Of a DNA stretch of 64,000 nt, positions 43,918 through 61,861 are shown piece after piece (position 1 is the stretch's first letter; every line of letters starts with the position of its first letter). The DNA comes from an uncultured Desulfobulbus sp. (GTDB lineage Bacteria > Desulfobacterota > Desulfobulbia > Desulfobulbales > Desulfobulbaceae). A program made the position numbers and the translations under genes. Location: assembly GCF_963664075.1 (NCBI RefSeq), contig NZ_OY760916.1, positions 4,711,110-4,775,109 on the forward strand, read 5' to 3'. The notes under the pieces are model-generated. The model made no database searches and was not told the origin of the DNA. It was given only the letters and a program-made list of their open reading frames with translations.

Positions 43918-44132
43918 CCGGCACAGTGATCAATCTCCTTGTCTTTTTGTTCTTCTTGAGGTAACTTTACTTCTTTTTTTTACCCGCCGTCTGGAAAAGC
44001 TGAGCGAATCAGCCGCATTTGCCTTTCACTCGGTAGACACACTCCAACGAGTTCATTCTCCCGTCAATTCCGGGATTCCTCGAAATATCAACTTTATATA
44101 CATGTAACCCCCAAGTGTGGGGGAGGAGCAGT

Positions 44133-45932
44133 ATGGATCAGCAGTTTATTCGTAATGTCGCTATTATTGCCCATGTTGACCATGGCAAGACCACCCTGGT
44201 TGATCAATTATTCCGTCACAGTGGAATGTTCCGCGAAAATCAGCAGGTGGAAGAGCGGCTCATGGACTCCATGGACCTGGAGCGTGAGCGTGGTATCACT
44301 ATTGCCTCCAAAAACGGCTCCTACATGTATGGAGAGTATCAGGTTAATATTATCGATACGCCGGGCCATGCCGATTTCGGTGGGCAGGTGGAACGCGTTC
44401 TGCGCATGGCCGATGGGGCAGTATTGCTGGTTGATGCCCAGGAAGGCCCCATGCCCCAGACCTTTTTTGTGGTCAAAAAGGCCTTGGCTGCCAACCTGCC
44501 CATCCTGGTGGTCATTAATAAGATCGATAAGCCCGCTGCCCGTTGTGATTGGGTTGTCGATCAGGTCTTTGATTTGCTCGATCGGTTGGATGCTCCGGAC
44601 CACATTCTTGATTTTCCTGTGGTCTATGCTTCGGCCAAGGCTGGCTACGCAGTTCTTGAGCCTGAAGATGAGGTGACACCCGAGACCGGCATGCACGCCG
44701 TCTCCGATATGATTATCAAGCATGTGCCGCCGCCAGCTGGTAATGCCAGCGAGCCCCTGCAGCTGCAGGTTAATACCATCGACTATTCTCCTTATTTGGG
44801 GCGGCTTGGTATCGGGAAAATTGTTAATGGTAGCCTTGATTTGCGCACCCCTTTGGCGGTTGCCCGTCGTGACGGTTCTATCTCCCCGGTACGGATCAAT
44901 AAAATCTTTGGCTTCAATGGGTCCACCAAGGTGCCCTTGGAGAAGGCCTCTGTGGGGGATATCGTTGCCGTTGCCGGTATGGAGGATGTGACCGTTGGTG
45001 TCACCTTCACCGACCCCGCCAATCCCAAGCCGTTACCCCTGATTGAGATTGATCCCCCGACCATCTCCATGAACTTCATCCCCAACGACTCACCCTTTGC
45101 GGGTCAGGATGGAAAATTTGTCACTTCGCGTCATCTTGAGGAGCGTCTTACCCGAGAGACCCTTTCCGATGTGGCACTGATGGTAGAGCCCTTGACTGAT
45201 GGTGTCGGGTATCGGGTCTCCGGTCGTGGAGAGCTCCATCTCTCGATCCTTATCGAGAAAATGCGACGCGAAGAGTATGAGTTTCAGGTCACACGTCCCC
45301 AGGTTATCATGCGTGAGATTGATGGCCAGTTGATGGAGCCCTATGAAGAGCTTTCCGTGGATGTTGATGAGCAATACCAGGGGGTGGTGATTGAGAAACT
45401 GGGTAAGCTCAAAGGCGTTATGACCGAGATGGTGGTGGAAAAAGAGATGGCCAAGATGAAGTTCAAGGTCCCCACGCGTGGGCTGCTTGGTTATCGTTCG
45501 GTCTTTATGACCGATACCCGTGGCATGGGCGTCATGAACTATATCTTTGCCGAATGGGGACCCCATGCCGGTGAGATCCAGAATCGAATCAACGGGGTGA
45601 TGATTGTAAAAGAGCCCTGTACCACCGTTGCCTATGCCCTGTTCAATCTTCAAGATCGGGGAAAACTGTTTCTGCCACCAGGTATCCCGGTCTATCCGGG
45701 CATGATCATCGGTGAGCACTGTCGTCCCGCCGATTTGATCGTTAACCCCGCAAAAGGGAAAAAATTAACCAATATGCGCGCCTCGGGCTCGGATGAGGCG
45801 GTTATCCTTACCCCTCCGGTTGACATGAGTCTGGAGGACTGCATATCCTATATCAATGATGATGAACTGGTAGAGGTTACCCCAAAAGCCATTCGCCTGC
45901 GCAAACGCAAGGATGCAAAGATCCGGGGCTAA
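44133..45932 (+). CDS. typA: Ribosome-associated GTPase TypA/BipA
   Basis: This 599-aa translational GTPase starts RNVAIIAHVDHGKTTLVDQL (G1), followed by RERGITIASKNG (G2), DTPGHADFGGQVERV (G3), NKIDKPAAR (G4) and the ASAKAGYA region (G5). It then has domain II, EF-G-like domains III and V, and the BipA-specific C-terminal domain (VNPAKGKKLTNMRASGSDEAV). BipA assists 50S assembly and translation under stress. The length matches the family. The ATG at 44133 has GGAGG 6 nt upstream. It is transcribed toward the candidate selenoprotein gene, 166 nt downstream. Confidence 0.96.
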   Translation: MDQQFIRNVAIIAHVDHGKTTLVDQLFRHSGMFRENQQVEERLMDSMDLERERGITIASKNGSYMYGEYQVNIIDTPGHADFGGQVERVLRMADGAVLLVDAQEGPMPQTFFVVKKALAANLPILVVINKIDKPAARCDWVVDQVFDLLDRLDAPDHILDFPVVYASAKAGYAVLEPEDEVTPETGMHAVSDMIIKHVPPPAGNASEPLQLQVNTIDYSPYLGRLGIGKIVNGSLDLRTPLAVARRDGSISPVRINKIFGFNGSTKVPLEKASVGDIVAVAGMEDVTVGVTFTDPANPKPLPLIEIDPPTISMNFIPNDSPFAGQDGKFVTSRHLEERLTRETLSDVALMVEPLTDGVGYRVSGRGELHLSILIEKMRREEYEFQVTRPQVIMREIDGQLMEPYEELSVDVDEQYQGVVIEKLGKLKGVMTEMVVEKEMAKMKFKVPTRGLLGYRSVFMTDTRGMGVMNYIFAEWGPHAGEIQNRINGVMIVKEPCTTVAYALFNLQDRGKLFLPPGIPVYPGMIIGEHCRPADLIVNPAKGKKLTNMRASGSDEAVILTPPVDMSLEDCISYINDDELVEVTPKAIRLRKRKDAKIRG

Positions 45933-46098
45933 GCCCTGAATCCATGGCAGCGGGTGTTGTAGAGCATGCCCTCTTAAGCGGTGAAGATATGTCGAGCCCC
46001 CATACCACGGGGATGAGGGCTTGATTCAAGTTGGGCCTGCTGTCTTTTTTCAGCTAGGGCTCACGGGTTTGCTTCAAACTCTCTCTTTGGGAGGGGAT

Positions 46099-46263
46099 AT
46101 GAACGAGTTGTTGATGATTGGCATTGCCATCGTAGCGGCTATCATGACCTTTGCGATCATCATTCGCCGCACCGGTGGCGAATGTATGCCCTGACTGCTG
46201 ATGTATGGTTCCGCAGGTGCGGGACTTGTCGCCTATCTGCTCTTGAAATCGATGTTTGAGTAA
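46099..46263 (+). CDS. Candidate small membrane selenoprotein (UGA as Sec)
   Basis: The frame from ATG 46099 (GGGAGGGG just upstream) encodes a hydrophobic segment (LLMIGIAIVAAIMTFAIII), then RRTGGECMP, and meets TGA at 46192-46194. Without a break in frame it continues as LLMYGSAGAGLVAYLLLKSM and ends at TAA 46261-46263. Read through, it is a 54-residue protein with two membrane helices and a C-M-P-U motif (Cys29, Sec32), the C-x-x-U arrangement typical of redox selenoproteins. The hairpin at 46207-46226 has the position and loop of a bacterial SECIS. It lies between typA and another membrane-protein gene. I do not recognise the family. Alternatives are a 31-residue peptide that truly stops at UGA, or a nonsense-mutated CxxC protein; neither explains the well-placed hairpin. 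Confidence 0.7.
46207..46226 (+). promoter_or_regulatory. Bacterial SECIS-like hairpin
   Basis: GGTTCCGC (46207-46214) pairs with GCGGGACT (46219-46226) over 8 bp, including two G-U pairs, around an AGGT loop. The stem starts 12 nt after the UGA and the loop G is 21-22 nt after it. E. coli fdhF SECIS has a similar GGUUGC stem and an AGGUCU loop about 11 nt plus stem after its UGA. The loop G and U are those contacted by SelB. Confidence 0.65.
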
Positions 46264-46281: not shown

Positions 46282-47121
46282 ATGAGTGCCGGTCATTCAT
46301 CCCAGCCACTGCTTTCTCCCCGGGAGACAGTGGCTGTTATAACAGCACGTATCAAGGAGCGGCGGCTCTATGAGGCTCGGTTCCTTTGTCGTAAGCTGGG
46401 GCAGGGGTTAACAGCAGAGCAGCGAGCCGCTTTGGAAGATCAGCTCAGCCAAAGCCTCTCTCGGGTCGAACAGGTGCACGTGAAGGCAAAGGATGCGTTG
46501 AGTTCAGGCAACTATGAACAGGCCCGTATCTTGTACAGCCAGATCGAAGCTGTCGCCATTGATGTGCCAGGCGTGCAAGAAGAGCTGCAAAATTTACGGG
46601 GTGCCATTGCCCTGGCAGAGCGTTTTGCACCGGCCAGCAAGCTGGAGAGTAAGGCTGAGCAGCCTATAGTTGTCGAGGGGGGAGCACCTGATCCTGCTCA
46701 AATAAGACCGGCCACAGGTTTAGCTCAAAACCTGCGGTCTCCTGTGGGACACAGAAACCATCGGTTTCTTGCACGCAAATGGCTCCTTGGCGGAGTTGGC
46801 CTGCTGTTTCTGAGTGGTGCGGTGGGACTTTTTCTTTTTTTTCAACGGGGAGAAGCACCACCGGTTTCGGTGTCTTCCGCTAGCCAAGCGCAATCCTCCA
46901 AGGCTGTTGAGCTCATTGAGTCACTCAATCATCCAGAAGAAAACCCAGAAGCTGTCATTGAAGAGCAAACCGTGCCCACAAAGCCAGCTCTGCCTGTGGA
47001 GAAGGCTGCCTCTGCAGCTCCTCAGCTGAGTAATTCCCAGGCCGAGCCCACAAAGACAGCTGAACATTCCGACACCCCAAGTGGTCCTGCGCTCAATCTT
47101 GGCGGATTACAGATAGAGTAG
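46282..47121 (+). CDS. Membrane-anchored helical protein, unknown function
   Basis: This 279-aa protein has an N-terminal helical repeat region (about residues 15-115: ITARIKERRLYEARFLCRKLGQ, HVKAKDALSSGNYEQARILYSQIEA) that resembles TPR-type hairpins. A single membrane helix follows (WLLGGVGLLFLSGAVGLFLFF, about 172-193), then a low-complexity Pro/Ala/Glu-rich tail of about 85 residues ending NLGGLQIE. With the positive-inside rule (HRNHRFLARK before the helix) the helical part should face the cytoplasm and the tail the periplasm. I do not recognise a family. GAGGGG lies 5 nt before the ATG. It starts 18 nt after the candidate selenoprotein, so the two are probably co-transcribed, which makes it the first partner to consider. 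Confidence 0.7.
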   Translation: MSAGHSSQPLLSPRETVAVITARIKERRLYEARFLCRKLGQGLTAEQRAALEDQLSQSLSRVEQVHVKAKDALSSGNYEQARILYSQIEAVAIDVPGVQEELQNLRGAIALAERFAPASKLESKAEQPIVVEGGAPDPAQIRPATGLAQNLRSPVGHRNHRFLARKWLLGGVGLLFLSGAVGLFLFFQRGEAPPVSVSSASQAQSSKAVELIESLNHPEENPEAVIEEQTVPTKPALPVEKAASAAPQLSNSQAEPTKTAEHSDTPSGPALNLGGLQIE

Positions 47122-61785: not shown

Positions 61786-61861
61786 GCGGGTGTAGCTCAG
61801 TTGGCAGAGCACAAGCTTCCCAAGCTTGGGGTCGCGGGTTCGAACCCCGTTGCCCGCTCCA
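61786..61861 (+). tRNA. tRNA-Gly (anticodon CCC)
   Basis: This 76-nt cloverleaf has acceptor GCGGGTG paired with TGCCCGC (two wobble pairs), a D arm GCTC/GAGC, an anticodon stem CAAGC/GCTTG with loop TTCCCAA (anticodon CCC, reading GGG), a T arm GCGGG/CCCGT with TTCGAAC and an encoded CCA end. It precedes rimP on the same strand. Confidence 0.96.

Follow-up and report, generated by a model that had tools for sequence, protein, structure and literature searches.

In the membrane proteins DsbB and VKOR, a CxxC motif lies at the start of a membrane helix, near the quinone. Among bacterial selenoproteins, a CxxU motif is listed for GrdA, for SelW-like and AhpD-like proteins and for the CC/Se motif family NF041239, and C/SxxU is given for a putative mercuric transport selenoprotein, PF02411 (PMC13188914, Table 1). 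That table, part of a 2026 review, comprises 119 selenoprotein families and subfamilies. The legend to Figure 2 of the review gives a consensus for the bacterial SECIS element (bSECIS): a loop of 3-9 nt with G in its first two positions, an upper stem of 4-16 bp, a UGA-to-loop distance of 16-37 nt and an MFE of -7.5 or lower. Selenoproteins have also been sought with deep-Sep, described as a deep-learning scan that retains a candidate if a selenocysteine (Sec) homologue is known or if a reduced database contains two or more homologues with Cys (PMC12013277).

We analyzed a window of 64,000 nucleotides (the whole stretch of DNA considered here) from an uncultured Desulfobulbus sp., in which a first-pass annotation had proposed a small membrane selenoprotein. 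We consider it highly probable that the locus encodes a selenoprotein in which the UGA at 46192-46194 specifies Sec. The best reading of the sequence data is that this protein belongs to a family, as yet undescribed, of membrane selenoproteins that have two helices and a C-x-P-U motif where helix 2 begins. The conserved in-frame UGA, covariation in a downstream hairpin and coding constraint after the UGA set the ORF above chance, and the same evidence, together with Cys orthologues and the Sec machinery of the genome, supports the selenoprotein identity that the annotation had claimed.

The ORF (46099-46263, plus strand) runs from ATG to TAA (46261-46263) and encodes a protein of 54 amino acids with Sec at residue 32, as read from the window sequence and its homologues: MNELLMIGIAIVAAIMTFAIIIRRTGGECMPULLMYGSAGAGLVAYLLLKSMFE. 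A ribosome-binding site, GGAGGGG (46090-46096, plus strand), ends 2 nt 5' of the ATG, and GGAGG-like sites are apparent by eye 5' of many homologues. The single in-frame TGA lies in the context GECMP-U-LLMYG. It closes the C-x-P-U codons TGT ATG CCC TGA (residues 29-32; 46183-46194, plus strand), whose Cys at -3 recurs across loci. Thus far, the window sequence bears out what the annotation had described: a ribosome site, one in-frame UGA and an end at TAA. Hydrophobicity and a low-confidence AlphaFold2 model (mean pLDDT 66.9, pTM 0.33) predict two membrane helices on the plus strand, at residues 3-24 (46105-46170) and at residues 30-53 (46186-46257); the second begins inside C-x-P-U.

Homologues were found in two orders, which we infer to be Desulfobulbales (hereafter the first order) and Desulfovibrionales (the second). 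In the first order, mean net charges are +1.4 for the loop between the helices, -0.2 for the N-terminus and +0.8 for the C-terminus; the second order has +3.1, -0.4 and +0.9, respectively. By the positive-inside rule, C-x-P-U is predicted to lie on the cytoplasmic side, more clearly in the second order. Because the C-terminus is mildly positive as well, the topology is not clear-cut.

A first search found a homologue in 41 of 55 related genomes, with exactly one TGA in all 41 matches. With a 29-row profile, 211 of 257 first-order genomes were positive, including 134 of the 148 good ones. Among the matches listed (E values to about 3e-14), one TGA was present in 150 of 150 rows, from 148 genomes; two further matches in G161 fall outside this list. 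A repeat of the search for the positive genomes that remained (63) gave 64 matches, of which 63 contained one TGA; the other, in genome G047, contained none and has Cys. Counted by best match, 210 of the 211 positive first-order genomes therefore carry a single in-frame UGA, and Cys occupies the site in the remaining one. In the second order, entered via genome G295, 60 of 297 genomes were positive, with one TGA in 64 of 64 matches. The annotation had raised the question of whether homologues end at the UGA. They do not: the listed matches continue past this position, with one internal TGA in each except the Cys versions in G047 and in genome G034. Evenly drawn samples of phyla placed the family in the two orders only, apart from a match in G323. 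The latter (15 residues with Cys at the site, ARCSPCLMMYSSVAT; E 5e-4 in a 395-genome sample) is antisense to a 573-aa frame and was dismissed as chance. Two or three matches each in G174, G161, G253, G664, G668 and G684 could be gene copies or reflect split contigs.

The TGA follows three codons after a Cys in all 115 loci that were read, some of which share a genome (100 distinct proteins among 112). The selecting pattern C-x-[PA]-U fits 112 of these loci, which makes the conservation of Cys -3 and of position -1 partly a matter of construction; the three loci outside the pattern read CPSU, CPQU and CPSU, and all three retain the Cys at -3 and have Tyr at +4. Loci for the analyses of hairpin register, covariation, conservation and pN/pS were likewise chosen by a pattern, C-x-[PA]-U-[LMIVA]-x-x-[YF], and their Cys, Pro/Ala and aromatic positions are also partly by construction. 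In the 29-row alignment, which was built without the pattern, the Cys, the UGA site, Tyr +4, Gly +8 and Gly +10 are invariant. Among 101 distinct Sec sequences, position -1 is Pro in 94 and Ala in 7, Tyr +4 occurs in all 101, Gly +8 in 96, Gly +10 in 100 and Leu +17 in 88. A Y-x3-G-x-G arrangement after the Sec is conserved. One fragmentary locus, L035, was left out of A1 and A2.

The annotation had pointed to an 8-bp hairpin with an AGGU loop beginning 12 nt after the UGA, and this hairpin is present both in the sequence and in the predicted fold. The putative bacterial SECIS, GGUUCCGC-AGGU-GCGGGACU (46207-46226, plus strand), is proposed on the basis of covariation, fold and two invariant loop G nucleotides. 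It pairs 46207-46214 with 46219-46226 around a loop at 46215-46218, which starts 20 nt after the UGA. All eight pairs occur in the predicted fold of 48 nt (MFE -14.3 kcal/mol), and loop, stem length, G at loop position 2, spacing and MFE agree with the bSECIS consensus as stated in the figure legend cited above. The hairpin does not stand out by its stability (z -1.14), which 24 of 200 shuffled sequences matched. A search of the region against Rfam returned no SECIS family. Its one match, to an lncRNA on the opposite strand (E 2.6), was rejected as chance.

Covariation was assessed in 70 distinct first-order sequences (set A3, from which 28 second-group sequences were left out) on a structure of nine pairs, namely the 8-bp stem plus the loop-closing pair, in comparison with 500 shuffles. 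Paired cells made up 91.3%, versus 83.4 +/- 0.7 in shuffled alignments, and cells changed on both sides numbered 50, versus 13.8 +/- 2.9; for both measures, 0 of 500 shuffles were as high. Slid versions of the structure reached at most 52.2% paired cells and 16 double-changed cells. Pairs with at least one double-sided change were not in excess (4 versus 3.3 shuffled; 157/500). This gap-free alignment has loop nucleotides G25 and G26 in every one of its 70 sequences. Because RNAalifold recovered only a 4-bp consensus core from the 70 sequences, the case for the hairpin rests on the count for the named structure.

All eight pairs form in 46 of the 70 first-order sequences and seven in a further 11, with one or more pairs missing in 24. 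In the second group, seven or eight pairs form in only 4 of 28 sequences, other folds appear, and the register of the window (59.8% paired, versus 64.7% at a shift of -3) is no better than others. In several other families (loci L063, L067 and L069), a hairpin with a GGUCU loop is predicted further 3'. On these predicted folds, the SECIS register seems to have shifted within one gene family.

The family also includes versions with Cys at the Sec site. Genome G047 encodes a UGA-free protein of 53 amino acids that reads CPAC at this position, and hhalign matched the family to it with an E value of 4.4e-11 over 53 columns. When this protein was used as a query, 36 of 175 genomes were positive at E <= 0.01, with one TGA in 34 members. 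The same query also recovered, at 61% identity over 45 residues, a protein reading CPMC in a second genome of that genus, G034. Cys orthologues are known from these two genomes of one genus. An mtnA-like gene (PF01008, E 3.4e-61) lies downstream in G047, after a 228-aa reading frame that overlaps it, and in G034 the adjoining downstream gene appears by eye to be mtnA-like. This neighbor family, F9, also lies 3' of the Sec version in L138 and L144-L147. To judge from these alignments, the Cys versions and the Sec family are a classical Sec/Cys exchange at one site.

Both Cys versions (L096:1588-1749 and L177) have Ala in place of Gly at +8 and +10, the codons of which form the hairpin loop and 3' arm. 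This substitution suggests that the RNA hairpin keeps the two Gly residues, which would be released to Ala once Sec is replaced by Cys. Alternatively, the loss of Gly may reflect a general drift of the genus with Cys versions, because Tyr +4, just 5' of the stem, is also lost, being Asn in both.

The annotation had singled out Sec machinery in the genome as a check, and tRNA-Sec, selA, selB and selD are all present. The source genome encodes SelB (E 1.2e-115), SelA (E 4.4e-183) and SelD (E 6.0e-110), the last with its own in-frame TGA. Its two tRNA-Sec genes (L001 and L002; G000:C1:4455489-4455582, plus strand, and 1233089-1233183, minus strand) both score above the Rfam cut-off and are both assigned anticodon tca by ARAGORN. 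Within the window, the sole Rfam match at the gathering threshold is a tRNA gene at 61786-61858. Seven gene-positive genomes had no selB match above the cut-off (G005, G017, G033 and G052; G675, G871 and G902), and these, except G052, are less than 90% complete or in at least 430 contigs. In the second order, selB was detected at E <= 1e-70 in 57 of 60 gene-positive versus 194 of 237 gene-negative genomes (counted by eye, assuming the same 297 genomes). This amounts to a weak link between the presence of the gene and selB (Fisher p 0.009, uncorrected for relatedness). A suggestive link comes from genus g9, which has five members among the negatives listed and none among the positives; G030, the only one tested for selB, had no match above the cut-off.

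Gene neighborhoods were compared in 42 regions, of which 41 could be anchored (L143 was dropped). Open reading frames were called by a crude longest-first procedure in which antisense frames hide typA in some regions (for example, L130), and the counts that follow are lower bounds. No neighbor is constant across the 41 regions. The typA/bipA gene upstream of the ORF (44115-45932, plus strand), which we regard as context rather than as part of the system, has the same position in at least 14 of them. The typA context that the annotation expected of homologues therefore holds for part of the family, which reaches far beyond that neighborhood. The mtnA-like family F9 occurs in at least 7 of 41 regions.

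The annotation had also linked the ORF to the membrane protein gene at 46282, which starts after a gap of 18 nt in the window. Its family, F18, was present in at least 4 of 41 neighborhoods, all four of the window's genus. Co-transcription is possible within that genus, and this gene was dropped as a family-wide partner because F18 is seen only there. One representative from each of 28 recurrent neighbor families was scanned against Pfam; 17 had matches and 11 had none, and no respiratory or metal-resistance family was among the 17. In genus g108, a rubredoxin ORF (PF00301, E 2.3e-17 for the single ORF scanned) ends 0-3 nt 5' of the start codon in 5 of 5 gene-positive genomes (L093, L112, L114, L125 and L127). 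The two ORFs could be a translationally coupled pair, a linkage seen in this one genus.

These observations can be combined into a model. SelB carrying Sec-tRNA-Sec, guided by the hairpin just 3' of the UGA, would decode the UGA as Sec, and translation would continue to the TAA to yield a 54-residue protein with two membrane helices and a short positive loop. C-x-P-U would then lie where the loop enters helix 2, on the cytoplasmic side if the positive-inside rule applies. Cys29 and Sec32 could alternate between a selenenylsulfide and a reduced pair, and electrons would pass between a carrier in the cytoplasm and either a partner in the membrane or a quinone. Rubredoxin, encoded by the adjoining gene in one genus, is a plausible carrier. 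We tentatively propose, at somewhat less than an even chance, that the protein serves as a small membrane-bound thiol/selenol redox relay. A more ambitious version of this proposal strikes us as improbable: that the protein is a near-universal Sec-dependent redox hub of Desulfobulbales between a rubredoxin-type carrier and the membrane, that it is among the smallest integral-membrane selenoproteins and that its Gly +8 and +10 are kept by the hairpin and not by the fold, changing to Ala with Cys.

Other accounts of the UGA itself were considered. UGA is an ordinary stop elsewhere, and many homologues themselves end in TGA, so the product might be a single-helix peptide of 31 residues, with the downstream conservation due to something else. 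The codons after the UGA speak against this. Across 92 sequence pairs that are 72-97% identical in nucleotides, the codons preceding the UGA have a pN/pS of 0.34, and codons +12 to +20, which lie past the hairpin, have 0.35; by this measure, the latter are under purifying selection. Synonymous divergence (pS) is 0.43 before the UGA, 0.47 beyond the hairpin and 0.17 within the hairpin codons, and the low last value is a sign of what would be a second constraint on the same bases. The annotation had asked whether the 22 downstream codons are conserved, and they are, including those past the hairpin. A stop at the UGA does not account for this constraint. The prevalence of Leu +17 noted above and the Cys orthologues, which read straight through the site, also count against a stop, and we regard this account as very unlikely. 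That the UGA encodes a different amino acid, or that the frame is a sequencing artefact, is more remote still: the same UGA occurs in hundreds of genomes, Cys is the residue in the sole substituted orthologues found, and selA, selB, selD and tRNA-Sec are present. Our analysis found no evidence in favor of either possibility.

Given a selenoprotein, its role could differ from a redox relay in two ways. Cys29 and Sec32 might form a binding site for Hg, Cu, Ag or As on the face of the membrane, in the manner of small mercury transporters, which would make the protein a handler of soft metals or metalloids. P-type ATPases have a CPx metal site, which C-x-P-U resembles. The review inventory includes a Sec-containing mercuric transport family (PMC13188914, Table 1). 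We nevertheless judge a role in metal handling unlikely: no member matches a Mer family, the neighbors with Pfam matches include no metal-resistance family (with 11 of 28 lacking a match), no plasmid copy was found in a search with P0001, and presence in 134 of 148 good first-order genomes looks like housekeeping, not resistance. The protein might instead be one of the small subunits of a larger respiratory complex in the membrane, with a role in structure or assembly, and its Sec might tune the redox or metal site of a partner. Its size and two-helix shape are like those of small accessory subunits, and 1 of 83 members has a weak match to CydS (E 0.002), yet a lone weak match among 83 is at chance level. 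Accessory subunits are usually encoded beside their complex, whereas none of the 17 neighbor families matched by Pfam is a respiratory enzyme, which leaves this role doubtful. The redox relay is the role that we carry forward.

Neither the 83 members nor the window protein have a credible profile match in NCBIfam 20.0 or Pfam-A; among the 83, single members matched two NCBIfam and five Pfam models, all weakly and all unrelated. A profile search of PDB sequences gave no match. By the names listed, Table 1 of the review (PMC13188914) contains no family that is a two-helix membrane protein with C-x-P-U. The family is also absent from the deep-Sep table of new selenoproteins (PMC12013277); the scan appears to have covered three genomes that carry the gene (G027, G140 and G816). 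The family would probably fail the filter of that scan as described there, and filters of this type may miss Sec genes that are very small and have few homologues with Cys. No description of the family was found in the titles and abstracts searched or in the portions of PMC5322559 consulted. Within NCBIfam, Pfam, the review table, the deep-Sep table and this literature, it is supported that the family is undescribed, and the annotation's claim to this effect stands for the first two databases and the review table. The family would add a widespread member to the inventory of 119, in bacteria already rich in selenoproteins. It may also be an instance of protein residues, here Gly +8 and +10, being set by an RNA element within the coding sequence.

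Comparison with described systems shows where the family stands apart. GrdA, the SelW-like and AhpD-like proteins and NF041239 share with it a Sec that is the last residue of a CxxU pair. They differ in that the 83 members match none of their profiles and in that C-x-P-U here starts a predicted helix of a 54-aa, two-helix protein. The PF02411 selenoprotein likewise has a CxxU-type motif and is, by name, a membrane transport protein. However, none of the 83 members matches PF02411 at E <= 0.01, Y-x3-G-x-G follows the Sec in the present family, and the Pfam-named neighbors here lack any metal-resistance family. The SECIS of E. coli fdhF resembles the window hairpin in its short stem just 3' of the UGA and its AGGU-type loop, whereas the window stem lacks a bulged U and, in some families, the hairpin is predicted further 3', with a GGUCU loop. 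DsbB and VKOR offer an analogy only, in that C-x-P-U also lies at a helix start. No member matches the Pfam model of DsbB or VKOR at E <= 0.01, and in contrast to those proteins, the members of the family described here are much smaller and have a positive loop that is predicted to be cytoplasmic.
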